Of a stretch of DNA of 41,276 bases, positions 5,381 to 38,859 are shown piece after piece. This DNA is from a virus: positions 1-41,276 of the IMG/VR virus record IMGVR_UViG_3300022200_000009, one strand, 5' to 3'. Numbering within the stretch: the stretch's first letter is position 1; each line of letters opens with the position of its first letter. Below the pieces are notes generated by a model that searched no databases, was not told the origin of the DNA, and worked only from the letters and a program-made list of their open reading frames with translations. A program made the position numbers and the translations under genes.

Positions 5381-5420
5381 ACTGGTCGGAGTTGTACAAT
5401 CAGTAAAACGTAAGTATAGT
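5381..5420 (+). promoter_or_regulatory. Phage promoter with GGTCGG element, copy 1
   Basis: ACTGGTCGGAGTTGT (5381-5395), 19 bp, then TATAGT (5415-5420). An overlapping TTGTAC gives a weak -35 with a 17-bp spacer. It lies 47 bp upstream of the gene at 5467. The same element recurs at 9545, 29422, 32422 and, on the minus strand, 38846. Confidence 0.65.
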
Positions 5421-5466
5421 TACTCCATCGAATCACGGTATGGTGCCGGATGGTGAGGTATATATT

Positions 5467-5910
5467 ATGACTTTATGTTTAAAAGGAAATCTCTTATGGT
5501 TTGCGTTTTCACAGAATAATTCTGGAGGGTTTTTCATTCAAAATGATTCTGTTGATCATTACGTTATGGTGCAAGCTCCTTCAGCAGCCGAGGCGGTTGA
5601 AAAGGCAAATGAGATTTTTTCTGATTACTCAGAATATTGTGAATGCTGCGGTGAGCGGTGGAGCACTTACTTTATCGATGATTCAGATGGTAGTGAGCTT
5701 CCAATGATTTACGGCGAGCCTGTTACTCATGCAGAAAAAGGCATGTTCAGAGAATTTGCAATTCTTCACTTATGGGATGGTCGAGTTGCAAAAGCAAGGC
5801 TTACTGAGGGCGACGATTTGAATGTTGCTGAGTGGGTAACTGGAGGCGGTGATAGCATTCCAGTTTTTAATGAAACTACCAAGTATATAACTGGCTTTCG
5901 AGGTGAGTAA
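5467..5910 (+). CDS. DUF7296-like conserved phage protein
   Basis: A 147-residue soluble protein of unknown function. The WFAFSQNNSGGFF opening, the AEAVEKANEIF helix and the CECCGERW pair of Cys motifs match a widespread phage family I know as DUF7296-like. The CxCC motif could bind zinc. Start choice: the ATG at 5467 has GAGG nine bases upstream, whereas an in-frame ATG at 5440 has no ribosome-binding site. It is the first gene after promoter copy 1. Confidence 0.65.
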   Translation: MTLCLKGNLLWFAFSQNNSGGFFIQNDSVDHYVMVQAPSAAEAVEKANEIFSDYSEYCECCGERWSTYFIDDSDGSELPMIYGEPVTHAEKGMFREFAILHLWDGRVAKARLTEGDDLNVAEWVTGGGDSIPVFNETTKYITGFRGE

Positions 5911-5911
5911 A

Positions 5912-6277
5912 ATGAACACAAAAGAACTATCAGAATTCTACGGCATTACGCAGCATGGCGTGCGCAAATGGTCAGCCAAAACGCGCCAGGATAAAACAAC
6001 CCAAGCCCTAGCAGGCGCAGAGCCAGCGATTTGTGAGCTACTTGCTGACATCAACAAGTTATCCTACATTTTTGATTGCCAGAACTTGCAAGGTGTTGAC
6101 CAAATGAAATGGTGCTGCGTACAGCGTCAACCAACGGCTCTATTCTGCACGATTCACGGCGTTTACGGTGCTCCTGAGTTGTTCCACGCTGAAATAAATA
6201 TGTACTCAGCAGATGCAGAAGCGAAGCTGCGAGTGCTGAAGAACTATTTAACCAAGTTGGTTTTTGATAATAAATAG
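5912..6277 (+). CDS. Hypothetical protein with N-terminal HTH-like segment (121 aa)
   Basis: Unknown function. Residues 1-20 (TKELSEFYGITQHGVRKWS) resemble an HTH with the G-I-T turn, which suggests DNA binding; the rest has no recognisable motif. The ATG at 5912 is preferred over a GTG at 5903 because the GAGGTGAG site is correctly spaced only for the ATG. One base separates it from the previous stop. Confidence 0.6.
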   Translation: MNTKELSEFYGITQHGVRKWSAKTRQDKTTQALAGAEPAICELLADINKLSYIFDCQNLQGVDQMKWCCVQRQPTALFCTIHGVYGAPELFHAEINMYSADAEAKLRVLKNYLTKLVFDNK

Positions 6278-6310
6278 CCGATATGAGCAGTACGGCACCA
6301 AGAGGTGCTT

Positions 6311-6487
6311 ATGAGATACACAAATTACCCACGACAACGCTACGGATATGGAGAGCCACAAATGACTCGTAAGGAAAGTGAGCAAATGAGCGGTGCGGAT
6401 AAAAAGATTGTTGCAGTATGGTCAGTGTTGGTCGCAGCTTTGGTTGTCGCTGCGCTGATAGGATTTAAAATGCGAGGTGTGCTATGA
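6311..6487 (+). CDS. Small single-span membrane protein (58 aa)
   Basis: The N-terminal half is Tyr/Arg-rich and polar. Residues 34-52 (IVAVWSVLVAALVVAALIG) form one transmembrane helix, followed by a short basic tail. An AGAGG site precedes the ATG at 6311. Its stop overlaps the next start (ATGA at 6484). No family recognised; possibly a host-membrane modulator, which is speculation. Confidence 0.6.
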   Translation: MRYTNYPRQRYGYGEPQMTRKESEQMSGADKKIVAVWSVLVAALVVAALIGFKMRGVL

Positions 6488-6726
6488 AAATCGAGAAGCA
6501 ACCTAAAGAAGTAAAAGTGATATTCAAAGGCGAGAGCTGGCTGTCAAAGTACATCAATTTCAAACATGAGCCGTATCATCATTTGACAGAAGATTACTAC
6601 CAACGCACATACGACAAGAAGTTAAGCGAAAAGCTGTTCTGCGCCGCCGTGTGGTCACTTAGCGCAGCATTTTGTATCTGGTGTTGGTTTATGTTTGGTC
6701 GTTTTATTGTGGAGGTAGTTTTATGA
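6484..6726 (+). CDS. Tail-anchored membrane protein (80 aa)
   Basis: Polar Lys/Tyr-rich residues 1-50 are followed by one C-terminal hydrophobic span (LFCAAVWSLSAAFCIWCWFM, about 51-70). The topology suggests a cytoplasmic domain tethered to the inner membrane. It is coupled to its neighbours by ATGA overlaps at both ends and directly follows another small membrane protein. No family recognised. Confidence 0.55.
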   Translation: MKIEKQPKEVKVIFKGESWLSKYINFKHEPYHHLTEDYYQRTYDKKLSEKLFCAAVWSLSAAFCIWCWFMFGRFIVEVVL

Positions 6727-7100
6727 GTCGGGTTATTAAGTTTCGCGCTTGGGATGAGGCGCGCAAGAAAATGCAAAAATCACCTAAATTCGTGTCATTT
6801 AAAATTAATTCTCAAGGTGAGATGTCGGCAGAAAATTACACGCCATCTTACAAGCTTCAACAGATGCCTGTAATGCAATTTACCGGACTTTTAGACGCGA
6901 ATGGCGTTGATGTTTATGAAGGGGATTTGATAGATTGGATGGGCGGTACTTTCTATATCAAGTGGGAAGATTCAGATTCTTCATTTTTTGCTGTACGAAC
7001 TGATGAAGTGATTGCAGAAAGCGGTCAGGAGTGGGCGGGCTCGTGCGTAGTCATCGGAAACATCTACCAAAACAAGGAGCTACTATCATGCGCGGATTAG
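6723..7100 (+). CDS. YopX family protein
   Basis: A 125-residue member of the YopX family, common in phages and of unknown biochemical role. Diagnostic pieces are VIKFRAWDEARKKM at the N-terminus and MQFTGLLDANGVDVYEGDLI in the middle, followed by the expected C-terminal IGNIYQN. The ATG at 6723 has a GGAGG site and overlaps the previous stop; an upstream in-frame ATG at 6672 lies inside the preceding gene and is unlikely. Confidence 0.85.
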   Translation: MSRVIKFRAWDEARKKMQKSPKFVSFKINSQGEMSAENYTPSYKLQQMPVMQFTGLLDANGVDVYEGDLIDWMGGTFYIKWEDSDSSFFAVRTDEVIAESGQEWAGSCVVIGNIYQNKELLSCAD

Positions 7101-7300
7101 CCCACGCCAAAGCAGCCATGCTAGCTGCACGCACAAAAGACGAATTGCGCCAAACGACAGCAGGCTTTTGCTTTACTGGTCGGTTCAGTTTTTCGGATGA
7201 TTTGAGTTATTCTGAAAATGCTTACATTGCCACGCGGCAAAACGAAAACAGTGTGGCTGAACTTTTACGATATGCGGATGAAATTGCGGTGAGATTGTGA
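7088..7300 (+). CDS. Hypothetical protein (70 aa)
   Basis: Unknown function. AAGGAG stands ten bases upstream of the ATG at 7088, inside the YopX gene, which it overlaps by 13 bp. The product starts with an Ala-rich basic helix (GLAHAKAAMLAARTKDEL) followed by an aromatic, Ser-rich middle. Its stop overlaps the GTG start of the next gene. Confidence 0.6.
   Translation: MRGLAHAKAAMLAARTKDELRQTTAGFCFTGRFSFSDDLSYSENAYIATRQNENSVAELLRYADEIAVRL
7175..7213 (+). promoter_or_regulatory. Weak, intragenic match to the GGTCGG promoter element
   Basis: ACTGGTCGGTTCAGT (7175-7189), 18 bp, then TATTCT (7208-7213). The first nine bases and the spacing match the intergenic copies, but it lies inside a coding region and the 3' half of the element is poor. 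It may be chance. Confidence 0.2.
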
Positions 7301-7476
7301 CAGCCACCCAACAACTAGCAGAAGCAATCAAGGATTACGAGCTAATCCACCAGCGCAAGCCAACGCGCCTGATTGTGACATGGGAGGTGCGCGCAGAGCT
7401 TGAGCGAGCGCAGGCGCTACCCGATATGGAAATAATCAACTGTTTGAATCCGTTTAGAACATTGAGGGTTGAGTGA
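7297..7476 (+). CDS. Hypothetical protein, GTG start (59 aa)
   Basis: The GTG at 7297 overlaps the previous TGA (GTGA), and the stop overlaps the next ATG, giving tight coupling on both sides. The product is TQQLAEAIKDYELI then RLIVTWEVRAELERA, a helix-strand-helix pattern with no recognised family. Confidence 0.55.
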   Translation: MTATQQLAEAIKDYELIHQRKPTRLIVTWEVRAELERAQALPDMEIINCLNPFRTLRVE

Positions 7477-7676
7477 TGAAGGCAATAACAAAAGAAGAGT
7501 TAGTAAAATGCCCTTTCTGCAATGAGCCGCCTGATGGTGATGAATACGTTTTTGCAGACTATTTCATACAGCCGCATGTCGCTGGTGATTTGGCGGAAGT
7601 AGAATGCGGAAACTGTTACGGTGAGTTTTCCATCAGGATTAGCAGCGACGATACAGCATCGGTATTTGGTGATTAA
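7476..7676 (+). CDS. Small zinc-ribbon protein, Lar-like (66 aa)
   Basis: CPFC at residues 12-15 and CGNC at about 45-48 form a four-Cys zinc ribbon, the pattern of restriction-alleviation (Lar-like) and related small phage proteins. Similarity is limited to the metal site, so anti-restriction activity is only a possibility. The ATG at 7476 overlaps the upstream TGA. Confidence 0.5.
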   Translation: MKAITKEELVKCPFCNEPPDGDEYVFADYFIQPHVAGDLAEVECGNCYGEFSIRISSDDTASVFGD

Positions 7677-7678
7677 TA

Positions 7679-7750
7679 ATGACCCTACCATGGTTTATCG
7701 CCATCGTAATAATTCTAATACTGGTTTTAGACTCAGGAGAGAAGAAATGA
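7679..7750 (+). CDS. Membrane micropeptide (23 aa)
   Basis: MTLPWFIAIVIILILVL followed by a charged DSGEKK tail: almost the whole peptide is one transmembrane helix. The start lies 2 bp after the previous stop and its own stop overlaps the next ATG (ATGA), which supports real translation. Only a weak ribosome-binding site is visible. Confidence 0.5.
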   Translation: MTLPWFIAIVIILILVLDSGEKK

Positions 7751-7908
7751 AAAAGCCAGAATACAAGCCGCGCCCTGTGTTGATACGCATCAGGGCAACG
7801 CAGAAAGAAGTTAACGCACGTCCAGTTTCAAATGGCTGGGCTTTGGCTAACGGCGACTTTGTGCATAACAGTGCTGCGAAGTTGGTGAAAGTGCTGGAAG
7901 AAGCATGA
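7747..7908 (+). CDS. Hypothetical basic protein (53 aa)
   Basis: A short Arg/Lys-rich product (KKPEYKPRPVLIRIRATQKE) with an Ala/Leu-rich C-terminus. AGGAG stands nine bases upstream of the ATG at 7747. It overlaps both neighbours by ATGA. No family recognised. Confidence 0.55.
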   Translation: MKKPEYKPRPVLIRIRATQKEVNARPVSNGWALANGDFVHNSAAKLVKVLEEA

Positions 7909-8024
7909 ACAACTGGCTAGGCCTATTCATATTCGTCGCATTCGCAATGCCGCTGATTGTAGCGGCCATGCACAACACACCTAAATGCAGGCGCGGCGTT
8001 GTGCCAACTGACAAGGAGTTTTGA
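7905..8024 (+). CDS. Membrane micropeptide (39 aa)
   Basis: The start overlaps the previous stop by ATGA. WLGLFIFVAFAMPLIVAAM forms one hydrophobic span near the N-terminus, followed by a basic Cys-containing tail (KCRRGVV). The ribosome-binding site of the next gene lies inside its last codons. Function unknown. Confidence 0.5.
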   Translation: MNNWLGLFIFVAFAMPLIVAAMHNTPKCRRGVVPTDKEF

Positions 8025-8025
8025 G

Positions 8026-8541
8026 ATGTTTGATAGTAACAATGAATTTGAAGGTGCTGTATATAAATCAGCGCAGCAACAAGCAAGGAACGGTAGACGC
8101 TTTAGCGAAGAAGATGAGCTACTTATCTGCGCTTTGGCGAAAGAGAAAATGATGGCTTACAAAATAGCTATTAAGTTTGATACGACCGCTGAGCGCATAG
8201 CTATTGTTTGCAGAGCTTATGGCGTTGAGCTGATAAGCCGCAAGAATCAGAAAAATAAAAAATCAAAGCAGATTTTAGCATTGCTGCAAAACGGCTATAC
8301 GTCGCATCAGATTATGGACCAAGTTGATTGCGACCAGAATTTGATTAATCAAGTTAGAAATCGCCATGGATTATCAAAGCCGAAAAGCAGCGCTACAATC
8401 CGCGTGATGAAGAGCTACGAACATGCAAAGCGACTTGTTCGAGACGGAATGACAGTTAAAGAAGCGTGTGCCGCGGTAAATATATCTGATAGCAGCTACG
8501 GCAAGTATAAGCGGTTGGAGAATAAAAAAGCCCTGGCGTAA
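8026..8541 (+). CDS. Putative regulator with three HTH-like segments (171 aa)
   Basis: Last gene of the rightward block. AAGGAG precedes the ATG at 8026. Three segments look like successive HTH units: FSEEDELLICALAKEKM with YKIAIKFDTTAERIAI, then ILALLQNGYTSHQIMDQVDC with NLINQVRNRHGL, then AKRLVRDGMTVKEACAAVNI with SSYGKYKRL. Repeated small HTHs of this kind occur in transposase-like and regulator proteins that read long sites. It is rich in Lys/Arg. As the last early-direction gene before the late region, it is a candidate activator of late or accessory promoters. That role is inference. Confidence 0.55.
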   Translation: MFDSNNEFEGAVYKSAQQQARNGRRFSEEDELLICALAKEKMMAYKIAIKFDTTAERIAIVCRAYGVELISRKNQKNKKSKQILALLQNGYTSHQIMDQVDCDQNLINQVRNRHGLSKPKSSATIRVMKSYEHAKRLVRDGMTVKEACAAVNISDSSYGKYKRLENKKALA

Positions 8542-8549
8542 ACTAGGGC
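8524..8549 (-). terminator. Leftward intrinsic terminator after the lysis genes
   Basis: On the minus strand GCCCTAG, loop TTTACG, CCAGGGC (one mismatch), then TTTTTTATT. It ends leftward transcription 38 bp after the Rz stop. It overlaps the stop codon of the convergent gene ending at 8541 and has no T tract on the plus strand. Confidence 0.65.
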
Positions 8550-8587
8550 AAAAGTGGAGGTGAGTTCATGCAAATGTTGAGGTTGCG

Positions 8588-9067
8588 TTATAATCTTAGC
8601 GCATTGTACGCAGCCTCGCAAGCTAATCCTTTTTGTCGGTTTCGGTCAGCAATTCCTGCCAGCTCTTCAGCTCTTTGGATAGTCCAGCCGAGCAACTCGG
8701 CTCGCACGACTGCGTTTGTCGCTCCTGAAGCGCGGAGTCTGGTAACTGTGGAATTTGCGCTTTGTAGCTTGCTGGTTGACAAGGCGAGCTGCTGGCGCAA
8801 CCTGTCAACAGTAACAGATAGCTCATCAGAATCAATTTTAAGCTGTTGTTCACGTAGTTTCGCATCTTTGCTTGCCTCTTCTAGTTTACCCTGCCACAGC
8901 CTTTCCTGATCGCGTATGGCTTCATTAGCGGCTAACACTTGCGCCGCGTCTTGCTCCATATGCTTTGACCATTTAGCTTGCCAATGGTTGTTAGTAATCC
9001 AGTGACCAAAATAAGCAGCAACAAGCAGCGCAACACCCGCAGCAATAATTTTATAAGTCTGATTCAC
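8588..9067 (-). CDS. Rz: Rz-like inner-membrane spanin (i-spanin)
   Basis: Spans the periplasm with Rz1 to disrupt the outer membrane at lysis. The 159-residue protein has an N-terminal transmembrane helix (IIAAGVALLVAAYFGHWI, about 7-24) and a long periplasmic coiled coil rich in Glu, Gln and Ala (about 35-120), the standard i-spanin architecture and length. It overlaps the endolysin end by 17 bp. A second gene, Rz1, is nested in another frame inside it, which is diagnostic for this pair. Confidence 0.85.
   Translation of the reverse strand: MNQTYKIIAAGVALLVAAYFGHWITNNHWQAKWSKHMEQDAAQVLAANEAIRDQERLWQGKLEEASKDAKLREQQLKIDSDELSVTVDRLRQQLALSTSKLQSANSTVTRLRASGATNAVVRAELLGWTIQRAEELAGIADRNRQKGLACEAAYNALRL
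8623..8865 (-). CDS. Rz1: Rz1-like outer-membrane spanin lipoprotein, nested in Rz
   Basis: Wholly inside Rz in a different frame. The 80-residue product has a basic, then hydrophobic N-terminus ending in the lipobox LLTGC, so signal peptidase II would leave a lipidated Cys 23 (LILMSYLLLLTGCASSS). The mature part is short and polar with Pro, Ser and Gln, as in o-spanins. The start at 8865 has GAGG nine bases upstream; an internal Met at 8826 would leave too short a signal sequence. Confidence 0.85.
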   Translation of the reverse strand: MRNYVNNSLKLILMSYLLLLTGCASSSPCQPASYKAQIPQLPDSALQERQTQSCEPSCSAGLSKELKSWQELLTETDKKD

Positions 9068-9534: not shown

Positions 9535-9563
9535 AGTATAGCCCACTGGTCGGAGTTGTTGAA
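9535..9563 (-). promoter_or_regulatory. Leftward promoter of the lysis genes
   Basis: TGGGCTATACTG with -10 TATACT at 9540-9535, 20 bp upstream of the endolysin start. The -35 (TTCAAC, 17-bp spacer) is weak and overlaps the GGTCGG element of the divergent island promoter. The same CAGTATAG(C)(C/G)CA core recurs at 32412 and 34856. Confidence 0.55.
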
Positions 9564-9583
9564 GCTGTGATGTGTGATATGTT
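9545..9583 (+). promoter_or_regulatory. Phage promoter with GGTCGG element, copy 2
   Basis: ACTGGTCGGAGTTGT (9545-9559), 18 bp, then an extended -10 TGATATGTT (-10 hexamer 9578-9583). It lies 31 bp upstream of the lone rightward gene at 9614 and back-to-back with the lysis promoter. Confidence 0.65.
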
Positions 9584-9613: not shown

Positions 9614-10363
9614 ATGAAAACATTAGATGATGCGGTTATTGAGTTGAATGGAAAATACCCAAGCCCAGTACCAAAGAATATATCAAATCAGCATTGCAGG
9701 CTTTATGTCAACTCCATTGGAACATATATTCCTGCGGATGATGTTTGCGCTCATGATTACGTTTGCACTCGCGATGAGTTTGAACAACGCGCCAAAGAGC
9801 TAGGATTTGTCAATGGCTATCGTTGTGGCGTTGAGTATAAGGCTGATGGCAAGCGCCCTGATTTGCCGGATGATGTTGGAGTGAACGCTATGGGAAAAAC
9901 GTATTACTCTTTCGCAAACAATCCTGTTGGTGGTGTTTTTTGGGATAAAGTAGAAAAATTTATTATTTGCGACCAACGCTATAAGCCAGCCGATACGAGC
10001 TATTTGGAAAAGCCAGCGCTTGAGCCTGTACCTGAAGAGGGATGTTGGTACACGTACGAAATGAATGTTGCCAATCAGCCAGCCCCAGTTGGCACTAAAG
10101 TATTGGTTGATTGTCATCATCAAGGCATGAAAGAAGGTATTGTGATTGGTGCGTTCCAGCGCTGGAACTGGATTGACGTTCAAGGTTTTGCAATAGAAAC
10201 TTTCGATATGATTCTGGTAAAACCGCTAGACCACGACCGCAAAGCCAAAGCCGAGCGCAAGCGGGTTGTTGATGCTGCGATGAAGTACGCCGATGAATTC
10301 ATAGAGCCGCGCCAGATGATTGAGGCACTATACGACAAAGGCTCTCTAAAACTACCAGAGTAA
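9614..10363 (+). CDS. Hypothetical protein in a solitary reversed island (249 aa)
   Basis: No family recognised. The product looks modular: residues 30-80 contain VNSIGTYIPADDVCAHDYVCTRDEFEQRAKELGF, with the C-terminal LDDAVIELNGKYP-type opening seen in small phage modules, and residues 135-200 include GCWYTYEMNVAN..PVGTKVLVDCHHQG, a segment reminiscent of small beta-barrel domains. The C-terminal 45 residues form a charged helix. GAGGTGAG precedes the ATG. The gene reads against the whole late operon, has its own promoter copy and is closed off by a hairpin, the layout of a moron. Confidence 0.65.
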   Translation: MKTLDDAVIELNGKYPSPVPKNISNQHCRLYVNSIGTYIPADDVCAHDYVCTRDEFEQRAKELGFVNGYRCGVEYKADGKRPDLPDDVGVNAMGKTYYSFANNPVGGVFWDKVEKFIICDQRYKPADTSYLEKPALEPVPEEGCWYTYEMNVANQPAPVGTKVLVDCHHQGMKEGIVIGAFQRWNWIDVQGFAIETFDMILVKPLDHDRKAKAERKRVVDAAMKYADEFIEPRQMIEALYDKGSLKLPE

Positions 10364-16126: not shown

Positions 16127-16411
16127 TCAACCCCCAAACATATTAGTCAAGCCAGATGCTACTGAGCTTAACGCATTTGAGCTTGTAGCGCCATCACCCA
16201 TACCAAGCAGCTGTTTTAATCTAGCGCCTATTGTTGGGTTTTTAGCGTCCAGCTCTGCAATAACTTGCATCTTGTCAGCTCCTGATTGTATTTGCTCGAT
16301 AGCCTGCTTTAGCAGCGCGTCATTATCTGCACCATGAAATGCTTGCTGGCCTTGCGCATACCCACCGCGCAATCCGCCTTGTTGTTGATTGTAAAAGCTG
16401 GTATCAAACAA
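16127..16411 (-). CDS. Small paralogue of the following ejection protein (94 aa)
   Basis: MFDTSFYNQQQGGLRGG at the start, and IQSGADKMQVIAELDAKNP with LLGMG later, match the first 70 residues of the next gene (MFDTSIYQQGRGLRSG; IQNGANREQVIQGLMAKDP; MLGGG). This is a tandem duplication in which only the N-terminal module survives here. It may be an independently packaged small virion protein or a decaying copy. The frame is intact, with no early stop. Confidence 0.65.
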   Translation of the reverse strand: MFDTSFYNQQQGGLRGGYAQGQQAFHGADNDALLKQAIEQIQSGADKMQVIAELDAKNPTIGARLKQLLGMGDGATSSNALSSVASGLTNMFGG

Positions 16412-16412
16412 A

Positions 16413-18407
16413 TTAACCTCCGAATATTGAGCCGATGACAGTGCCGACGCCTTCTCTCATGCCAGCAGCTGACCCGACTGTTCCAGCCGCCTGAGCGTTG
16501 CCTTGACCGACAGCGATATTGCCTTGAGTAGAGCCTTGGCCTGTTGCCAAGTTAGCAAGGATTGACGCTAGGTTAGCTTGAGACTGGGCGCCAGATGTAG
16601 CTCCGCCAGTTAGCAGTTGAGCCAACTGAGATGCTGTATTTGTGTCAAGACCTGCCAGCATTTGGCCTAAGTTAAGCTGGTTATTTGAAAGAGCGCCAGT
16701 TGTTTGACCAAGCTGTGTAGCAACATCGCGCCCAGCCTGCGAGCGAAGCCCTGACATTTGCTGGCCTGCATTGCCGTAGGCGTTGCCAACTTGCTGACCT
16801 GTGCCGGTGAACAGTTGAGCTAGATTATTTCCAGCGCTACCGATTGAGCTAGCTTCATTTTGACCAAGTCCAGCGCGCAAACCGCCGATAGTCCCGCCAA
16901 GCTGATTCAATGTATTTCCGGCAAACTGACCACCCTGAGCTGCATAGTTTCCAGCCTGAGCGCCAGCCTGAGCGCCCAAGTTCGCAAGATTTAATCCTGC
17001 ATTTGCCTGCATGCCAGCTTGCTGCCCCATTAGATTTGCTTGCTGCCCAGCAATTTGACCAATCAAGTTAGCACCGCTAATGCCGCCAGTTTGGCTAAAC
17101 TGACCTTGCTGAGTAGCCGCTTGCTGTCCGCGCTGCGCAATATTTCTCATATTTTCAAGTTGCTGCTGCTGATTTTGCGCAGCAATGCCGTAAGCCTGTT
17201 GCTGTAGCGCTGTTTGCGTAGAGCCACCACGCAGCCCGCCAGTTGCAGACGCATTACGCAACAAAGCCTTCTCCTGCTGCTGGCGTAAAAACTGTTGCCC
17301 TGGAGATTCAATAAACTGATTGATGGCGCCCTGCTGGGCTTCTGCGCCTAACGCCCCAGATAAGGCTGCCTCTTGTTGTTGCGCGGCCTGCCCAGTGCTT
17401 GAGTATGGATTGAGATATTCAATTGCTCGACCAGTAGACTGGTCTATTCTACCAAGGCCTTGGTCTTGAGCATTAGCTAGTATACCTACGCCAGCACCAA
17501 TTGACCCGCTAGCCGCATTTATCCCACCAAGTATGTCTGACCTACCAATAGCATTAGCATTCAATACGTCATTTCTTGCCTGCCCAAAGCCTTGATTAGC
17601 TGCACCTAAAGCTTGATATCCGTATTGATTAAGTGCATTCTCCGCACCTCCAACACCAGAGCGTAACGCTCCAAGCTGACCGCCAAGAGATTGCTCAAGC
17701 GCATTTTGCGCCATTCCAGCCCCTTGCATGTAAGAGCCAACCTGTCCCTGCAATCCACCTTGCAAAGCCTGCTCAGCACCAGCTAGACCAATACCTGATG
17801 TGTCAGGAGCCTGAATCGTTTGAGCTGCAGGCAATGGCTGAGATTGAGTTGTTTGCGGCATTGCGGTTGCTTGCTGATTTACTTGCATAGGCTGGTAATT
17901 CTGGTTCGGCACTCCGCCGCCCATGAATGGACCGCCGTCTTGCGCTGATAGCGTTGGGATTCCTTGCATTGACTCAAATGAGCCACCGCCTTTCTGAATG
18001 CCGTACTGCTGTTGTGACTGCATTGGATTGCCAGTAAGTGGTGACATTTGGCGCAGACCGCCAGCCTGCATTGTTTGCGGCTGTTGTGGTAATTGCATTT
18101 GCTGTGGCCTCCCAAGCAGCGCAGACATTACTGCATCATTACCGCTTTGTATTGTTTGATTTGAGTTTGAAAATGATTGGCGAAGAATATCTGAAGCCGA
18201 CGCTTTGCCTTGACTGATTAAGTCGCCAGCCTGAGCGAATGCGTTGCTAATATTCTGGTATGACGGACCCATATATTTAAGGATGTCATCACGCGCCTGA
18301 TTGTAATACTGCTGATTAATCTGCGACGCTTTCTCACCAGCTGCAATCTGCTGTTGAGCTGCCTTCTTTTCAGCACCGCCAAACCATGTGTCTTTAACAA
18401 AGCTCAT
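16413..18407 (-). CDS. Large Gln/Gly/Ala-rich internal virion protein (664 aa)
   Basis: Placed where P22 has gp7 but far longer. The N-terminus (FGGAEKKAAQQQIAAGEKAS, about 9-28, then NQQYYNQARDDIL) matches an N-terminal module shared by many ejected virion proteins. The rest is low-complexity: Gln-rich tracts at 95-190, then repeats of GAQAGNYAAQGGQFAG type with GQQ and Gly/Leu/Ala periodicity to the end. Such sequence favours extended, flexible chains that could unfold to pass through the tail. The C-terminal GTVIGSIFGG is weakly hydrophobic. Biochemical role uncertain. Confidence 0.65.
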   Translation of the reverse strand: MSFVKDTWFGGAEKKAAQQQIAAGEKASQINQQYYNQARDDILKYMGPSYQNISNAFAQAGDLISQGKASASDILRQSFSNSNQTIQSGNDAVMSALLGRPQQMQLPQQPQTMQAGGLRQMSPLTGNPMQSQQQYGIQKGGGSFESMQGIPTLSAQDGGPFMGGGVPNQNYQPMQVNQQATAMPQTTQSQPLPAAQTIQAPDTSGIGLAGAEQALQGGLQGQVGSYMQGAGMAQNALEQSLGGQLGALRSGVGGAENALNQYGYQALGAANQGFGQARNDVLNANAIGRSDILGGINAASGSIGAGVGILANAQDQGLGRIDQSTGRAIEYLNPYSSTGQAAQQQEAALSGALGAEAQQGAINQFIESPGQQFLRQQQEKALLRNASATGGLRGGSTQTALQQQAYGIAAQNQQQQLENMRNIAQRGQQAATQQGQFSQTGGISGANLIGQIAGQQANLMGQQAGMQANAGLNLANLGAQAGAQAGNYAAQGGQFAGNTLNQLGGTIGGLRAGLGQNEASSIGSAGNNLAQLFTGTGQQVGNAYGNAGQQMSGLRSQAGRDVATQLGQTTGALSNNQLNLGQMLAGLDTNTASQLAQLLTGGATSGAQSQANLASILANLATGQGSTQGNIAVGQGNAQAAGTVGSAAGMREGVGTVIGSIFGG

Positions 18408-29421: not shown

Positions 29422-29460
29422 ACTGGTCGGATTTGTTGTTTGATGGTGGTGTGGTATGGT
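29422..29460 (+). promoter_or_regulatory. Phage promoter with GGTCGG element, copy 3
   Basis: ACTGGTCGGATTTGT (29422-29436), 18 bp, then extended -10 TGGTATGGT (hexamer 29455-29460). It lies 28 bp upstream of the three-gene rightward island. Confidence 0.65.
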
Positions 29461-29487: not shown

Positions 29488-29772
29488 ATGGTTAAGTCAT
29501 TAAGCGTAATTTATAAGGTTGAACTAACAATCACAGTAAAAAACATAAGGCCGAAATCTTGGGGCACAGAAAAATACCCAAAGACATATGAGGATAGGCT
29601 AGCCGATATGGTTGAAGCCCAGCACACAGAGAGCTTAAGGCTTTGCTTCCCTCCAAAAACTAATGTTGAGCAGGTAATTTCGTACTTAAAGGAAAGGTAC
29701 GGAAAAGCGTATCACTCAGTGCAATCTGTTTCAATTGATGGGTATGTTGATGTTATTGAGGAATTAAAATGA
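29488..29772 (+). CDS. Hypothetical protein, first gene of the rightward island (94 aa)
   Basis: No family recognised. It starts with a strand-rich segment (SLSVIYKVELTITVKNI) and ends with a helix and strand (VEQVISYLKERYG, SVSIDGYVDVIEELK), suggesting a small alpha/beta fold. GGAGG precedes the ATG at 29488; in-frame codons further upstream overlap the promoter. The stop overlaps the next start by ATGA. Confidence 0.65.
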   Translation: MVKSLSVIYKVELTITVKNIRPKSWGTEKYPKTYEDRLADMVEAQHTESLRLCFPPKTNVEQVISYLKERYGKAYHSVQSVSIDGYVDVIEELK

Positions 29773-30190: not shown

Positions 30191-30244
30191 TCACTTCTTC
30201 TTAGGTGGCATCTTGCCACCTTTTTTACTGCCTTTGCATGCCAT
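30191..30244 (-). CDS. Lys-rich micropeptide at the portal end (17 aa)
   Basis: MACKGSKKGGKMPPKKK, nine of 17 residues Lys or Gly-adjacent Lys. It starts 20 bp before the portal stop in another frame and ends just before the leftward terminator. Small basic peptides of this type occur beside head genes in other phages; whether this one is translated is unproven. Confidence 0.45.
   Translation of the reverse strand: MACKGSKKGGKMPPKKK
30204..30226 (+). terminator. Rightward terminator of the island at 29488-30165
   Basis: GGTGGCA, loop TCT, TGCCACC (30204-30220), then TTTTTT. It ends the rightward island and lies within the Lys-rich micropeptide read on the other strand. Confidence 0.85.
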
Positions 30245-32384
30245 CTGGTATCGCTCCTATTTTGATGTCAACTTTCGGCGCCATGATTTGATGCGCTTCG
30301 TTAATTGTCTTGATGGTTTGCGCCTCCTTCAGTGAAGTGTCAGCGTTTTTATTATCTGCCTCAGCGTCTAACTTGGCAAGCTCAAGGCCTACTTTGCCCT
30401 CTTGCTCTTTAACCTTCAAGTTAAGCTCTGCAGCTTTCTGCTCTAGCTTCTTCATTTCTAAGTCAAGCATTGCCATCTTGATTTCATGCTGCTGCTTTAG
30501 CAGCTCGTTGTTCTGCTGCTGCAGTTGAGCGTTCATCTGCTCCATTTGCAGGCGCTGATGCTCCATCTGCAATAGTTGCGGGTCTGTTTGTGGTGGCTGC
30601 TGTTGTGATAACTGCATTGCCAGCTCATCCTCACCAATCGCCTGCAGTGACTTAGTAGCAATGGCGATATTAGCGGGTGTCGGATTATCAAACAGTGGCG
30701 CAATCTCAATCAGGACTGACACTGTTTGCATCTTCTGCATTTGGCTTGATTTGGTGGCATCTGCAACTGGCTCAATGTCATAGCCTTGGCGTGTAAAGTC
30801 TTGAGCATAATCAGCTTGCTGGTCGTCCAGCACTTGCAGGTAGATTTGCGGGTCGGTGTACTTGGCGTTTAAGTCAAACATCTTGCTGAACTCTTCAGAC
30901 ATTGAGCGCAAGACTCGGCCAATCAGAGTTGACGTCGGCATCATCTTTTCTTGCAGGATGCCAAGCGTCGTAGCTGCTGGCGCATTAGGTGCAATCATGC
31001 CTTCCATTTGGATGACTGCTGACATGTTACGAGCTTCAGCTTTTGCCGTCTCATTCATCTGCATAAGTGCTGGAGACGGTTCTTTAAAAATGTGTGGCAA
31101 GATGCCGCTTTTAAGTGTTTCTGCGTCTACGTCTAATTGTGTGTATTCTCCAGGCTTAACGACCATTGGCTTTTTGTTTTGCCGGAACTCTTTTGACTTC
31201 CAGCCGCCTTGCAAGTTAGCAAGCGTACCTGAGTCGATTAGCTGGTTTGTGGTCGTGTTGATTAGCTCGCAAGCTCCGGCCAGCAAGTGACAGTAACCCC
31301 AATTTAAAAATGTGCCATCAGGGGCAACGACAAAGCCATACTTGGTGATTAATCCTACTGGTTTAATCTTGACAATCGTCATGCCTTTGTATGCTTTCGA
31401 CTTCAACTCTTCAACAAACTTTTCTTGGTCTACTGCATCAGCCTCTTCTGGCGTCATTGCCGCTACGTTTTTCAGCTCTTCAGTAGCTACGCTGGCAATT
31501 GCTTGTTGCTCAACCTGAGATAGTGGCGCGACTATGCCTTCCCCAACCTTAACTAAGATTGACGACTTATCAAATCGAGCAACGATGCGCACAACCTTTC
31601 CTGTCGGCTTGTGTACTGTTACAATGTACGGCTCTGCATACCCATCCTCGTCTAAGTCAATAGCTGTGCACTGCTCAAGGAAATCATCAGTGACTTCAAC
31701 TTCTTCGCTTTCGTCGCCGTCCTCGTTGTCGTCTTCATCTTCTTTGTCCATCTCAATATCTAGCCAGATACCGGCAGAGATGCGCTCTTTAATTTCATTA
31801 TCAGAGTAGTTTTTGCACTCAGTGAAGCGAGTCATTGCAGACATGCTGCGCTCGTTTTGGTTAACTGCAAAGTTAGGATAAAAGATTGGAACTGAAATGT
31901 TCTTTCCTTCTGTCGGGTCAAAGAATGTTTTTTTGAAGAACACACCAACAGACGCCAAGGCATAAAGCGCCTGCTCCTGCTCGTCTCGCCACTCTTTCAT
32001 CTCATAGTTAAATTGCCAGTTCATAAACTTAGCGACACGGGTCATGCGCATCTGTTTATCTGGAGTGTCTGCGCCAGTAATGCAGCCGCGCACTAGGTTC
32101 TTTTCGGTGAGGATTTCAGATGAAGCCCTATCACCAAATGCAATGACGGCTTCATAAATCATTGGAGATTTGTAGTTGCTTGCGCCGTCCCACGGAAACG
32201 ATTTAGAGCCTTTCGCTGGTTCGGCCACTTTCATGCCTTTCTCTACAGCCTCAGACCATGACGACATGCTATCGCGGTCTTTTCCGTAGTCTTCACAGAC
32301 TTTCTTGCCAATCTCTTCTAATTCTTCTTCATCAAGCAATTCTGCAATGTTTGGATTGTCGATATAAGATAATAACTTTTGCAT
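30225..32384 (-). CDS. Portal protein, P22-like
   Basis: The dodecameric gate for DNA packaging and exit. Its 719 residues are close to the P22 portal (725). Typical stretches are SFPWDGASNYKSPMIYEAVI near 60-80, TRFTECKNYSDNEIK, and LITKYGFVVAPDGTFLNWGY with GACELINTTTNQLIDSGTL in the core. An acidic insert lies near 215-235. The C-terminal 170 residues are a Gln/Lys/Glu-rich helical barrel (QLLQMEHQRLQMEQMNAQLQ), as in the P22 crown. It follows terL apart from a reversed gene at 32489-32773. Confidence 0.85.
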   Translation of the reverse strand: MQKLLSYIDNPNIAELLDEEELEEIGKKVCEDYGKDRDSMSSWSEAVEKGMKVAEPAKGSKSFPWDGASNYKSPMIYEAVIAFGDRASSEILTEKNLVRGCITGADTPDKQMRMTRVAKFMNWQFNYEMKEWRDEQEQALYALASVGVFFKKTFFDPTEGKNISVPIFYPNFAVNQNERSMSAMTRFTECKNYSDNEIKERISAGIWLDIEMDKEDEDDNEDGDESEEVEVTDDFLEQCTAIDLDEDGYAEPYIVTVHKPTGKVVRIVARFDKSSILVKVGEGIVAPLSQVEQQAIASVATEELKNVAAMTPEEADAVDQEKFVEELKSKAYKGMTIVKIKPVGLITKYGFVVAPDGTFLNWGYCHLLAGACELINTTTNQLIDSGTLANLQGGWKSKEFRQNKKPMVVKPGEYTQLDVDAETLKSGILPHIFKEPSPALMQMNETAKAEARNMSAVIQMEGMIAPNAPAATTLGILQEKMMPTSTLIGRVLRSMSEEFSKMFDLNAKYTDPQIYLQVLDDQQADYAQDFTRQGYDIEPVADATKSSQMQKMQTVSVLIEIAPLFDNPTPANIAIATKSLQAIGEDELAMQLSQQQPPQTDPQLLQMEHQRLQMEQMNAQLQQQNNELLKQQHEIKMAMLDLEMKKLEQKAAELNLKVKEQEGKVGLELAKLDAEADNKNADTSLKEAQTIKTINEAHQIMAPKVDIKIGAIPDGMQRQ

Positions 32385-32411: not shown

Positions 32412-32440
32412 AGTATAGCGCAGTGGTCGGAGCAGTGAAA
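32412..32440 (-). promoter_or_regulatory. Leftward promoter of the portal gene
   Basis: TGCGCTATACTG with -10 at 32417-32412, 28 bp upstream of the portal start. The -35 (TTTCAC, 17-bp spacer) is weak and overlaps the GGTCGG element of the divergent promoter. The layout is identical to 9535-9583. Confidence 0.55.
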
Positions 32441-32461
32441 GTGCGAGACTTACTGTATACT
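32422..32461 (+). promoter_or_regulatory. Phage promoter with GGTCGG element, copy 4
   Basis: AGTGGTCGGAGCAGT (32422-32436), 19 bp, then TATACT (32456-32461). It lies 28 bp upstream of the single rightward gene at 32489 and back-to-back with the portal promoter. Confidence 0.65.
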
Positions 32462-32488: not shown

Positions 32489-32773
32489 ATGGAATACGAA
32501 GATCAAATAGATGCGCTGGAAAATGAGATTGAACATATTGAAAAGCAAATACTGTCATTAATGGAAAAGCAGTACGCCGAAACTCACGCAAAAGACATTG
32601 ACGTTGGCGATAAGGTTGTATTTAAAGCAACTGACATTCTAGCCACGGTCGAAAGTTCTAGTTTTGTAGCCGCAAACTTTCATGGCGATAGATACGTACG
32701 CTACATCTTGGTGTGCAAAACAAAAAGTGGAAAAACATACACAATGCAGCGCTGCGAGGTTGAAAAGCTTTAA
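32489..32773 (+). CDS. Hypothetical protein, solitary rightward island (94 aa)
   Basis: An N-terminal coiled coil (DQIDALENEIEHIEKQILSL, about 5-24) is joined to a small beta domain (DIDVGDKVVFKATDILATVE, YILVCKTKSGKTYTMQRCEV). The second half reads like a KOW/SH3-type barrel, which is an impression only. AGGAG precedes the ATG. It lies between terL and portal, against their direction, with its own promoter; no plus-strand terminator is visible. Confidence 0.65.
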   Translation: MEYEDQIDALENEIEHIEKQILSLMEKQYAETHAKDIDVGDKVVFKATDILATVESSSFVAANFHGDRYVRYILVCKTKSGKTYTMQRCEVEKL

Positions 32774-34884: not shown

Positions 34885-34900
34885 GCCCCGTAGTGGGGCT
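34879..34900 (-). terminator. Terminator of the right-hand accessory cluster
   Basis: On the minus strand AGCCCC, loop ACTAC, GGGGCT, then TTTTTT. It ends the leftward accessory cluster just before the terminase promoter. Confidence 0.85.
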
Positions 34901-35233: not shown

Positions 35234-35567
35234 GCCATATCTCCGCATTTTTAATAAACTCAATCCCGTCAACAATCTCCAACAACGCATCCTTGCGCTT
35301 ATCGTCAGGCGCTACATCAGCACAATGCTTTAGCTTGTTGATTGCTTCGCTTAGGCAGAATGCGTAGTCGCTGCTTGGTTGATTTGAGCACTCTTGGTAG
35401 TCTGACGCTCTTAAAATATCTACCGTTGTATATCTATCTATGCACCAGACTCCATCAATTAGCGCCCTTGGAAAATCAAACTTTGATGTATCTCTAAACT
35501 TTCCATATGCGAAGCAGTTTGCTCTAGCAGGAGCCTCAACGCCGTTTACTGTCCATTTGTTTGTCAT
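35226..35567 (-). CDS. Hypothetical protein (113 aa)
   Basis: A soluble protein with a compact first half (NGVEAPARANCFAYGKFRDT) and a helical second half (CLSEAINKLKHCADVAPDDK). No family recognised. It overlaps both neighbours by a few bases. Confidence 0.6.
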   Translation of the reverse strand: MTNKWTVNGVEAPARANCFAYGKFRDTSKFDFPRALIDGVWCIDRYTTVDILRASDYQECSNQPSSDYAFCLSEAINKLKHCADVAPDDKRKDALLEIVDGIEFIKNAEIWHD

Positions 35568-35794
35568 TTTGTGCGCTCCAGTTCTGCTAGTAATGCGTCT
35601 GCGTGTGCCACTGCGCTAATTGCGGCCACGTTAGTAAACTCCGAATTATCGCAAGACAAAATACCCTGCAATGCCGCCATTGCAAACATTTCGCGCTTGT
35701 TGAGGCCGCCAGCAGAATGGCACTCTGCAATATCTCCAATCTGCTGAAATATCGTTGTTGGCATTGCCGGTAAATCACCATTTTTAATAGTCAT
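35564..35794 (-). CDS. Conserved phage protein with GLNKREMFAM motif (76 aa)
   Basis: The NGDLPAMP opening, GLNKREMFAMAALQGIL core and VAHADALLAELE end match a short protein common in phages of enteric and related bacteria. Function unknown. The ATG at 35794 has a GGAG site; a GTG two codons upstream is less likely. Confidence 0.65.
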   Translation of the reverse strand: MTIKNGDLPAMPTTIFQQIGDIAECHSAGGLNKREMFAMAALQGILSCDNSEFTNVAAISAVAHADALLAELERTK

Positions 35795-35796
35795 AT

Positions 35797-35985
35797 TCAC
35801 TCTCCAGTTAATACAAGTTGATCAGCAGCTCTTGCAAGCTCTGCAACGCCAACGCAAACCACATAAAACAAATCAGGCTTGTGATGGTGCCAGTTTGTTA
35901 GCGTCTGCAATGACGTGCCTGTCTTGTCGGTTATTTGCTTCAGGCTTTTGCAGCCTAATTGTTTGGCTAGTTGGGAGGCTGTCAT
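35797..35985 (-). CDS. Small HTH protein (62 aa)
   Basis: TASQLAKQLGCKSLKQITDKTG then SLQTLTNWHHHKPDLF is a bent HTH of the kind seen in excisionase-like and Cro-like proteins; the rest is one helix. It could be the local regulator of the accessory cluster. The start at Met 35985 is preferred to an upstream TTG. Confidence 0.55.
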   Translation of the reverse strand: MTASQLAKQLGCKSLKQITDKTGTSLQTLTNWHHHKPDLFYVVCVGVAELARAADQLVLTGE

Positions 35986-35999
35986 TTTATTTCTCAAAG

Positions 36000-36749
36000 T
36001 TAAAACATATCCAATTGAATTTCAGATTTTAAATTGTATTGCTTTATTAAATTTATAGAGTCGGTTGAATTTAGCTGCTCTATCCTCTCAGTTAAAACGG
36101 CAGCCCTAGTTTCTTTGCTTGCTGGCTGGTACGTGCCTTTCCATGCGCTATCAATGCCAATATTTCTTGCTACGTTTGTGCTGTCAGCAGATGACAATGG
36201 TAATCTTGAAAAAACAGCAGGGTTTAACATTCTTAATCCATGTAATTTGCAAACTGGCCTGCCGTATGTGTCGCATATATGCGGCAGAACATCAGCCATT
36301 CGATCAATCAATTTTTCAGGCTTCGAAACGTCATACTCACCAGAGCTTCCAATTGCCACTATCGGCCATTCATTGGCCAGCATAACCAAGCGATCAATTG
36401 ATTCGTTAGTATGCCAAACAGCGGCCGCCTGATGCTTTTTAAAAGGCCATAAATTTAGCAGTTCATTATTTTCTTTTTCTGTACCTTCTATAACATCAGG
36501 AACAACGGCAAAGTCAAATCCTGGATGATTACGCCACATATCAACCCAATTAAAATATAATGACCAATCAATTGTCTTTCCTGATTTCCAGAAGCTAAAT
36601 GCGCCGTTATCAAGTGAAAAACTTTGGCAAATCTCAGCAGCTAATCCGAGTTGCCGGAAATCAGCAAAGCTGACAAATGCGTGCCTCCCTTTCCATGTTT
36701 TTATGGCGCATGGGTCTGGAGTAATTGGGCCTCCATGGTAATGAATCAT
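36000..36749 (-). CDS. TGT/DpdA-like TIM-barrel protein
   Basis: A 249-residue protein resembling tRNA-guanine transglycosylase-like enzymes, including phage DpdA, which exchange guanine for a 7-deazaguanine. Key segments: SLDNGAF with Asp 47 (compare the DSGGF general-base motif of TGT), FDFAVVPDVIEG with Asp 79 and Asp 85, AVWHTNES, AIGSSG (132-137), CKLHGLRML (167-175) and SSADSTN (186-192). The pattern is one I know from uncharacterised phage proteins. The length is shorter than classical TGT or DpdA (about 350-400). No preQ0 synthesis or transport genes are visible, so any base would be host-derived. The start overlaps the previous stop (ATGA); an upstream GTG is less likely. Confidence 0.5.
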   Translation of the reverse strand: MIHYHGGPITPDPCAIKTWKGRHAFVSFADFRQLGLAAEICQSFSLDNGAFSFWKSGKTIDWSLYFNWVDMWRNHPGFDFAVVPDVIEGTEKENNELLNLWPFKKHQAAAVWHTNESIDRLVMLANEWPIVAIGSSGEYDVSKPEKLIDRMADVLPHICDTYGRPVCKLHGLRMLNPAVFSRLPLSSADSTNVARNIGIDSAWKGTYQPASKETRAAVLTERIEQLNSTDSINLIKQYNLKSEIQLDMF

Positions 36750-36985
36750 AAAAACAACTCTCGCCACGCGGCCTCAAAATAACACTCCTCAGCCTCATCT
36801 AAGCATCCAAAATTTTTAAATCCATTTTCCCAAATTTCAATATTTGCATTTTCTAAAGCGCATTGCAGATCAGACACTTGATTGTGGCTATCCACCATGC
36901 TAATAGAGCAATTAAGATTCGGATATTTTTTAGACATGCGTTCTATGTAGTCTCTCACGTTTTCGTAGTTGTAGAAAATATTCAT
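36746..36985 (-). CDS. Hypothetical protein (79 aa)
   Basis: An aromatic, acidic protein (FYNYENVRDYIERMSKKYPN, then GCLDEAEECYFEAAWREL). No family recognised. Coupled to the TGT-like gene by ATGA and preceded by a sigma-70-like promoter at 37017-37044. Confidence 0.55.
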   Translation of the reverse strand: MNIFYNYENVRDYIERMSKKYPNLNCSISMVDSHNQVSDLQCALENANIEIWENGFKNFGCLDEAEECYFEAAWRELFL

Positions 36986-37016
36986 TTTTTATCCAGTAAA
37001 ATTAACTCTCCCAATC

Positions 37017-37044
37017 ATCATAGCAAGCTATTTTATCTTTGCAA
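37017..37044 (-). promoter_or_regulatory. Leftward promoter inside the accessory cluster
   Basis: TTGCAA (37044-37039), 16 bp, TATGAT (37022-37017), 32 bp upstream of the gene at 36985. It would allow the TGT-like gene to be expressed separately from the cluster's first half. Confidence 0.5.
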
Positions 37045-37275
37045 GCATTTAATCAAATTATTTAAAATTAATCGCTCAGCAACATTCAATATTTGCTGTC
37101 TATCACCAGGACTCGCCGCAATCAAATCAAGCAGCGACGCCTTAGTCAGTTGGTCGCTCGTTTGTTGCAGCAGTCTTGCTGCGGTTTGCACGATGACAGC
37201 CTGTTGCGGCTGCTTGTCTTGTTGTGCTATGCGCCTGGCTAGGCACAATGTAAGTGTTTCGCTTATGGCTTTCAT
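37033..37275 (-). CDS. Hypothetical helical protein (80 aa)
   Basis: Ala/Gln/Leu-rich and fully helical (AVIVQTAARLLQQTSDQLTK, then AERLILNNLIKCL). The start overlaps the previous stop (ATGA). No family recognised. Confidence 0.55.
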   Translation of the reverse strand: MKAISETLTLCLARRIAQQDKQPQQAVIVQTAARLLQQTSDQLTKASLLDLIAASPGDRQQILNVAERLILNNLIKCLQR

Positions 37276-37433
37276 TTTCTAATCTCATGCCACTTGTAAC
37301 CGCCGCCACTAGCCACAAGCTCACCGTTCGCAATCATGCGCTTGGCAACTTCCCTGCTATTCGGCTTTAAGTCCGCCAGCTTTAGAAGGCCGTTTTGGGA
37401 TTTCTTTTTTATCGCTTGGTGTAATCCGGTCAT
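37272..37433 (-). CDS. Small winged-helix-like protein (53 aa)
   Basis: QAIKKKSQNGLLKLADLKPN, SREVAKRMIANGELVASGGG and YKWHEI fit a mini winged-helix used in phage regulators and primase-associated domains. The stop of the upstream gene touches its start. It is coupled to the next gene by ATGA. Confidence 0.55.
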   Translation of the reverse strand: MTGLHQAIKKKSQNGLLKLADLKPNSREVAKRMIANGELVASGGGYKWHEIRK

Positions 37434-37613
37434 TCAGCACTCCCTACCATTTTCTAACCATCTTTTATGGCTTTCACCAAATTGTTGTGCCGGAGACTTT
37501 GTTCGCTTATGGTTTGGGTTGACGCGCATAAAAGCCTCGTCAAGCTCTCGAACAACTCTCTCTACGCTGCATTTTGTTAGGAGCGTTAAGCGCCATGCAC
37601 CAGGATTACTCAT
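37434..37613 (-). CDS. Hypothetical basic protein (59 aa)
   Basis: MSNPGAWRLTLLTKCSVERV followed by a Lys/His-rich half (NPNHKRTKSPAQQFGESHKR). It overlaps the upstream gene by 8 bp, and its stop directly precedes the next ATG. No family recognised. Confidence 0.55.
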   Translation of the reverse strand: MSNPGAWRLTLLTKCSVERVVRELDEAFMRVNPNHKRTKSPAQQFGESHKRWLENGREC

Positions 37614-37878
37614 AATCAGGAGCCTCTAAAGCATCCAACCATTTGTCATTGTATTTCCTAACCAACACCGCCGCAGAAGCCTCACAGCGCATCCTAGCAG
37701 CGTGTTTAATCAAACCCTGTAGGTTTGCTTGCCTACCCTCCATAAAATCAGACAGCGCTGAATCTAGAGCGCTATGCGTGATACTTAACTGCTCCATCAG
37801 TGCTGACATGTTCACGCGATAGTCGAAACGCTCGAAAAGATACTTCGAGCAGGCTGTTTGGTTGTTGTTATCAGTCAT
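37606..37878 (-). CDS. Hypothetical helical protein (90 aa)
   Basis: MTDNNNQTACSKYLFERF, then Ala/Leu-rich helices (ALMEQLSITHSALDSALSDF, LIKHAARMRCEASAAVLVRK). The ATG at 37878 overlaps the previous stop (ATGA). No family recognised. Confidence 0.55.
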   Translation of the reverse strand: MTDNNNQTACSKYLFERFDYRVNMSALMEQLSITHSALDSALSDFMEGRQANLQGLIKHAARMRCEASAAVLVRKYNDKWLDALEAPDYE

Positions 37879-38066
37879 AGCGCAATCTCCACATTTTCGC
37901 AGCGAACCCATATTAAATCATCATCGTAATCACCATCAGATGACCAAATAGATAACCCAAAAAGACGCTCATAATAATTCACAGTTTTAATTCTGTACTT
38001 AGAGCCTCTGTAGATGACGATATCTTTTGAAGAAAATCTTGATTGGTCAAATTCTTGCTGTGTCAT
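37875..38066 (-). CDS. Hypothetical protein, small beta-barrel-like (63 aa)
   Basis: KDIVIYRGSKYRIKTVNYYE and DDDLIWVRCENVEIAL alternate strands as in small SH3-like barrels. The start and stop both overlap neighbours. Function unknown. Confidence 0.55.
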   Translation of the reverse strand: MTQQEFDQSRFSSKDIVIYRGSKYRIKTVNYYERLFGLSIWSSDGDYDDDLIWVRCENVEIAL

Positions 38067-38344
38067 TTCTCACCTCGATAGTCATCAAGCACAGCTCTAA
38101 GCTTAGCAATTACAGGGTCATCAATACCGGTGCCGTAATGCAGGTTATACGCTATGAATAGCATTGCTAAAGACTCTTCCAAAGCATCCGCCAGTTTATC
38201 GACATTGTTGATGGCATGTGCTGCCGCCTTTAAATGAACCTCTAAAGCATCAAAGCCATCAATTAATGTTCTGTTGCTTGCATCATTAAGTCCGTATTTG
38301 TCAATACCGACAGGCAACAAAAATACCTCGTTCATTCGTTTCAT
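38063..38344 (-). CDS. Hypothetical protein (93 aa)
   Basis: A helical, Ala/Leu/Asp-rich protein (ALEVHLKAAAHAINNVDKLA, ALEESLAMLFIAYNLHYG). The ATG at 38344 is chosen because it overlaps the upstream stop (ATGA); ATG at 38335 is an alternative. No family recognised. Confidence 0.55.
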   Translation of the reverse strand: MKRMNEVFLLPVGIDKYGLNDASNRTLIDGFDALEVHLKAAAHAINNVDKLADALEESLAMLFIAYNLHYGTGIDDPVIAKLRAVLDDYRGEK

Positions 38345-38460
38345 CTCTCGCAACCCTCACTCCAGCGCTTTTTAAAAGCCATGTAGCCAGCGACTAAAGA
38401 CGCCTGCCACAACCAACGATAAGTTTTATCGACACCCCAAACGCAATAATGTTTTTTCAT
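38341..38460 (-). CDS. Hypothetical basic, Trp-rich peptide (39 aa)
   Basis: MKKHYCVWGVDKTYRWLWQA then SLVAGYMAFKKRWSEGCER: four Trp and many basic residues around a short hydrophobic stretch that may associate with membrane. The stop overlaps the next start by ATGA. No clear ribosome-binding site. Confidence 0.45.
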   Translation of the reverse strand: MKKHYCVWGVDKTYRWLWQASLVAGYMAFKKRWSEGCER

Positions 38461-38488
38461 AATTTATTTTCCTTGAAAGTAATTTTTA

Positions 38489-38629
38489 TTACCGAACCAA
38501 ATACCCGTAAGCGTTTGCAAGTTTTACAGCTTCAAGTTCAGAATCTTGAAGCCTTCCAATTTGCCGCCCATTGTCATCAACAATCATCCAGTATCCGGTT
38601 TTATCTTGGTAAACTTGTGCAGTTTTCAT
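38489..38629 (-). CDS. Hypothetical protein (46 aa)
   Basis: MKTAQVYQDKTGYWMIVDDN, GRQIGRLQDSELEAVKLANA and a Tyr-rich end: a short beta-hairpin-plus-helix module. GGTGAT directly precedes the ATG, adjacent to the upstream stop. No family recognised. Confidence 0.5.
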   Translation of the reverse strand: MKTAQVYQDKTGYWMIVDDNGRQIGRLQDSELEAVKLANAYGYLVR

Positions 38630-38630
38630 A

Positions 38631-38789
38631 TCACCAATCCTCGCTTAACGAATCATATTCTTCGCGCTCTGCAATATCACCTTCCATACCGTCCAGGCAG
38701 GCGTCGCAAAAGCAACCGTATTTACTATCTCCGAATGGGCTTGATAAAAACCCAACAAATTCGCATGAGTCACACTTTTCTTTTTTCAT
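38631..38789 (-). CDS. Small zinc-binding protein, first gene of the accessory cluster (52 aa)
   Basis: CDSC at residues 6-9 and CFCDAC at 26-31 give up to five Cys for a zinc site, followed by a very acidic tail (GDIAEREEYDSLSED). GGAGG precedes the ATG. It is the first gene downstream of the minus-strand GGTCGG-type promoter. Confidence 0.55.
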   Translation of the reverse strand: MKKEKCDSCEFVGFLSSPFGDSKYGCFCDACLDGMEGDIAEREEYDSLSEDW

Positions 38790-38821
38790 CTCTCAAGCCC
38801 TCCAATTAATCACCTGCCAGA

Positions 38822-38859
38822 ATAGTAGCACTTGTTTTTGGTTTAACTGCTCCGATGAG
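38822..38859 (-). promoter_or_regulatory. Phage promoter with GGTCGG-type element, minus-strand copy
   Basis: On the minus strand CTCATCGGAGCAGT (38859-38846), 18 bp, then TGC and TACTAT (38827-38822), an extended -10. TCGGAGCAGT equals the same bases of copy 4. It lies 33 bp upstream of the leftward accessory cluster. Confidence 0.55.

Follow-up and report, generated by a model that had tools for sequence, protein, structure and literature searches.

A repeated promoter element of marine phages is almost certainly a binding site for the host fatty-acid regulator FadR

Five intergenic sites in a 41,276-nucleotide stretch of viral DNA (IMG/VR record IMGVR_UViG_3300022200_000009, the whole of which is referred to here as the window) carry copies of one element, ACTGGTCGGAGTTGT, upstream of a -10 box, which raises the question of which protein reads these promoters. 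A sequence-only reading of the window had taken the element to be phage-specific and undescribed, and had proposed a regulon read through a dedicated activator, a phage sigma-like factor or an altered polymerase. The promoter class, with an activator site at the -35 position, proved to be real, but an activator made by the phage is disfavored. Judged by its sequence, the element is almost certainly a binding site for FadR, an acyl-CoA-responsive host transcription factor of the GntR family. Each copy very probably represents a host FadR operator from which FadR helps the σ70 polymerase, as at fabA and fabB.

All five intergenic copies were recovered (Table 1), as were a TANNNT box 18 or 19 bp downstream of every copy and an extended TGN at three of them. 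At up to 3 mismatches, ACTGGTCGGAGTTGT has 4 matches in the window compared to 0.49 expected, and none of 100 shuffles of the window reached 4 matches. When the symmetric published half-site of the FadR palindrome was combined with a -10 box, 6 sites were found in the window, compared to 0.07 in shuffles. A palindrome at 7175-7189 (+), the FadR-like ACTGGTCGGTTCAGT with TATTCT at 18 bp, has a geometry equal to that of the other sites; it is located inside a gene, is probably due to chance, and was left out of the count as a sixth promoter. Operators 4 and 5 are weaker variants, off the consensus. Operator 4 is symmetric and represents the GGAGCAGT variant, which predominates in phages HS2 and BS5. 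This operator may also be shared with a leftward promoter (TACTCT, 32404-32399, 17 bp off), with the large, portal-like gene at 30225-32384 just downstream. The earlier statement that these promoters have no normal -35 is correct for a TTGACA-like hexamer, but the copies with GTTGT hold a weak -35-like hexamer, TTGTNN, made up of the right half and the next bases, at 16-17 bp from the -10. The same arrangement is found in fabA (TTGTTC, 17 bp, TATCCT), and the element can therefore be placed across the -35 region.

Table 1. Predicted FadR-type operators of the window, their -10 boxes and the genes that follow them
Feature	Position	Strand	Sequence or product	Remark
Operator 1	5381..5395	+	ACTGGTCGGAGTTGT	exact copy; 17-bp form AACTGGTCGGAGTTGTA
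-10 of operator 1	5415..5420	+	TATAGT	spacer 19 bp
Gene after operator 1	start 5440 (or 5467, better Shine-Dalgarno)	+	DUF7296 protein	right-reading accessory run
Operator 2	9545..9559	+	ACTGGTCGGAGTTGT	exact copy
-10 of operator 2	9578..9583	+	TATGTT	extended TGA; spacer 18 bp
Gene after operator 2	9614-10363	+	249 aa	no family
Operator 3	29422..29436	+	ACTGGTCGGATTTGT	1 mismatch to ACTGGTCGGAGTTGT
-10 of operator 3	29455..29460	+	TATGGT	extended TGG; spacer 18 bp
Gene after operator 3	29488-29772	+	94 aa	
Operator 4	32422..32436	+	AGTGGTCGGAGCAGT	3 mismatches to ACTGGTCGGAGTTGT
-10 of operator 4	32456..32461	+	TATACT	spacer 19 bp
Gene after operator 4	32489-32773	+	94 aa	
Operator 5	38846..38860	-	ACTCATCGGAGCAGT	4 mismatches to ACTGGTCGGAGTTGT
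-10 of operator 5	38822..38827	-	TACTAT	extended TGC; spacer 18 bp
Gene after operator 5	38631-38789	-	52 aa	first in left-reading accessory cluster (from 38789)

The element matches the published consensus of the FadR operator, aaCTGGTCnGACC(T/A)Gtt (PMC9329746), and can therefore not be considered undescribed; the window sites fit either this 17-bp palindrome or the lineage form GGAGTTGT. In E. coli K-12, fabA and fabB share [A/G]CTGATCGGACTTGT followed after exactly 19 bp by the -10, with aACTGATCGGACTTGTt (also written as ACTGATCGGACTTGT) and TATCCT in fabA and gGCTGATCGGACTTGTt (also written as GCTGATCGGACTTGT) and TATTGT in fabB. Approximately 30 host fabA promoters from Shewanella, Pseudoalteromonas and the wider order, gathered by protein search without use of the motif, showed NSTGATCGGAGTTGTT (NSTGATCGGA[G/C]TTGTT), 19 bp and TANNNT, and the right half of these operators, GGAGTTGT, is the phage form. 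The distance of 19 bp was invariant across these promoters, with the FabR palindrome in between. A scoring matrix built only from 22 distinct 17-mers of host fabA and fabB, with no phage sites, ranked 9545 (24.6 bits), 29422 (19.1 bits), 5381 (18.7 bits) and 38860 (12.9 bits) as the top 4 of all positions in the 41-kb window. All four of these sites have a -10 at 18 or 19 bp, compared to 0.02 expected; site 32422 scored low (4.5 bits) with this matrix of fabA and fabB sites only.

The element was also found in bacterial chromosomes. When 85,000 genomes of bacteria and archaea were searched for the 15-mer with its -10, 32 stretches were identified, more than half of them titled Shewanella, and in 12 of the 12 Shewanella stretches that were read through it is located upstream of a protein with the N-terminal sequence of FadL. 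Shewanella fadL, which carries two tandem FadR sites, is a described FadR target (PMC4537474). A large chromosomal contig of Pseudoalteromonas sp. EB27 carries an exact copy of the 15-mer, followed at 18 bp by a -10, before a small gene other than fadL. With matching FadR operators upstream of host fabA, fabB and fadL, the element is not specific to phages.

The phage promoters share with fabA and fabB the operator, its place over the -35 region and a σ70 -10 at 19 bp (18-19 bp in the phages), and with Shewanella fadL the identical 15-mer and 19 bp to TANNNT. By comparison to fabA, which has TGATC and always 19 bp, the phages have TGGTC and mostly 18 bp, and their promoters often show a TGTGN extended -10 that sets them apart from fabA and fabB. 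The FabR palindrome, which fills the fabA spacer, is absent from the phage promoters, where its best match was 6-10 of 16 positions (13-16 in most host promoters, approximately 8 in random sequence). Moreover, the fabA-type operator TGATCGGASTTGT showed no enrichment in viral contigs, with 30 occurrences compared to 26 at the control spacing. This result, together with the TGGTC and 18-bp differences, indicates that the phage promoters are not plain copies of fabA.

The opposite sign of regulation has to be considered, as most fad genes are repressed by FadR; host FadR could keep the phage genes off, and an increase in acyl-CoA, either late in infection or in cells rich in fatty acids, would then turn them on. 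Shewanella fadL, with the same operator upstream, has a second operator near its start, downstream of the first, which is expected to repress, but the window promoters are without one. FadR activates from the -35 region, whereas repressing sites overlap the -10 and +1 (PMC9329746); the phage sites are found at the activating position, in promoters without a good -35, and repression is hence quite unlikely.

Further analysis showed that the element, with its spacing, is found in other phages. Spaced patterns (operator plus -10) were counted in IMG/VR against control spacings; the GGA[G/T]TTGT form was found in 46 stretches at the correct spacing compared to 6 at the control, and the GGAGCAGT variant in 58 compared to 1. 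Among 117 distinct IMG/VR occurrences, TANNNT was located at 18 bp in 31 and at 19 bp in 12, with 0-10 at other distances. The GGAGCAGT loci had 18 bp in 54 of 57 cases, but these loci were fetched for 18 or 19 bp, so the 58 vs 1 comparison is the unbiased figure. A set of 91 distinct phage sites showed two conserved blocks, aACTGGTCGGA...GTT and TGTGNTANNNT, separated by poorly conserved sequence; as these sites were preselected for operator-likeness and TANNNT, the independent part of this pattern is the extended TGTGN. When a 44-nt consensus was searched against 50,697 named phages, matches that began at the element's left end were confined to Pseudoalteromonas phages HS2 (9 promoters), BS5 (7) and H6/1 (4) and Alteromonas phages XX1924 (8) and PB15 (5), and seven IMG/VR records have 5-11 such promoters each. 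The nine HS2 promoters (KF302036) are located at 6784, 8269, 11279 and 16411 (+) and at 36311, 23010, 18286, 16425 and 6798 (-). The named carriers all infect Alteromonadales (Alteromonas or Pseudoalteromonas), so the element may help to suggest hosts of uncultured phages.

No such promoters were found in H103, pYD21-A, phiHSIC, vB_VnaS-L3 or DDSR119; H103, a phage of Pseudoalteromonas marina, is the nearest named relative of the window by primase (53% identity). They were also absent from HP1 and HS6, from 36 of the 37 kb of HS1 and from a 50-kb portion of HM1. HP1 and HS6, with 0 promoters, and HS2, with 9, were all isolated on a single strain of Pseudoalteromonas; the element is therefore a property of certain phages and not of host DNA composition. 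A spread on plasmids was rejected, as the element had 0 matches in 72,556 plasmids at BLAST sensitivity.

As to the protein that reads the element, the window was found to lack a GntR domain, and 38 element-bearing records, the window among them, lacked a FadR_C domain; a phage-encoded FadR was therefore rejected. FadR was present in 15 of the 15 host genomes tested. The DNA-contact residues named in PMC4259882 (R35, T44, R45, T46, T47, R49 and H65) were identical in ten aligned FadR proteins, from E. coli, Pseudoalteromonas EB27, three Shewanella and five other genomes, a set that may not include the host of the window.

An activator, sigma-like factor or modifier of the polymerase made by the phage itself, as favored by the sequence-only reading, would account for several copies per phage genome at a fixed spacing to the -10, and helix-turn-helix proteins are present in the phages. 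The two window proteins that had been put forward for binding (283-459 and 8026-8541) are ordinary helix-turn-helix proteins, and nothing ties either to the element. Among 13 element-bearing genomes, no protein family was common to all, the broadest being found in 9, and the window has no detectable gene in common with three of them (G072, G080 and G101). The element is moreover present in host promoters, with the exact 15-mer at Shewanella fadL and a close form at fabA; that host fabA and fadL have this operator in an identical arrangement argues against a phage factor. In BS5, two divergent genes start 51 and 52 bp away from one palindrome (2634-2648), which has a -10 at 18 bp on either side, and the same operator at 16411-16425 of HS2 again has a -10 at 18 bp on either side. 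Since divergent cases over all sites were only slightly above chance expectation, weight is given only to these two symmetric ones; promoters that diverge from one palindrome fit a symmetric dimer and not a sigma factor. A phage-made reader is thus very unlikely. A σ54 promoter was rejected as well, because the spacing between the halves does not fit the σ54 consensus.

Phage middle promoters of the T4 MotA type have the box of an activator where the -35 would otherwise be. The promoters described here resemble them in that an activator site replaces the -35 beside a good -10, but the proposed activator is host-encoded, symmetric and metabolite-controlled, and no phage factor was found.

The genes behind the element are mostly short and without family assignment, and the predicted leaders mostly measure 18-27 nt. 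One of the H6/1 promoters is located ahead of an operon annotated for double-strand break repair. From these data, we infer binding, activation, early timing and a response to fatty acids. The predicted operator is centered approximately 38-39 bp upstream of the transcription start, over a weak or absent -35, with TANNNT, usually with an extended TGN, downstream. FadR free of long-chain acyl-CoA would bind there and aid initiation by host σ70 RNA polymerase, as at fabA and fabB, so that several separate accessory cassettes could be read early from incoming DNA by host machinery without a phage-made activator; long-chain acyl-CoA would release FadR and turn the accessory genes down. In the HS2 transcriptome, 67% of the genes are early and structural genes are late (PMC7082346), a pattern that is compatible with early reading, although it is not at the level of the element-served genes. 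As time-resolved transcriptomes of PSA-HS2 on Pseudoalteromonas exist (PMC7082346), this phage represents a ready test system.

The number of operators per genome, multiplied by replication, could also suggest a decoy that mainly titrates FadR and shifts host lipid metabolism towards degradation, and fatty-acid degradation proteins are up in HS2 virocells at low phosphate (PMC11170926), but a decoy would not depend on a fixed distance to a -10 and start codon, and HP1, without such promoters, shows a larger rise in these proteins (PMC11170926), which leaves this the least probable explanation. G085 and G107 carry approximately 16-18 FadR-like operators each (32-36 matches over both strands); 11 in G085 and 8 in G107 have a -10 at 18 or 19 bp, and a good part are without one.

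Phages are known to borrow host regulators. A search of the literature on phages and FadR found no report of phage FadR promoters, and a literal text search for CTGGTCGGA gave only unrelated papers among the matches listed; activation by host FadR would thus place a known operator in a setting for which no report was found, a phage regulon driven by host FadR. FadR is a central lipid regulator, and its predicted site recurs in phages with few or no genes in common. The match to the FadR operator, at the position from which FadR activates, suggests that in a whole group of marine phages accessory genes are coupled to a lipid sensor of the host. From the element one can predict, in a testable way, which phage genes are read together and, if the FadR reading is true, it links host lipid state to infection. 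More tentatively, a widespread marine phage regulon of accessory, possibly early takeover, genes might sense the acyl-CoA pool through FadR, with an infection strategy that would differ between cells that synthesize fatty acids and cells that consume them, and the many operators might divert FadR from host genes.

Two further genes of the window's accessory regions gave matches to known families. The gene at 7473-7676 (+), in the right-reading accessory run, has a weak match to Lar (restriction alleviation) with an E value of 5e-4, below the cut-off. The gene at 36000-36767 (-), in the left-reading cluster, has a strong match to phrog_887 (phage queuine tRNA-ribosyltransferase, 2e-77) and no Pfam match; its product could be an enzyme for 7-deazaguanine modification of DNA or tRNA.
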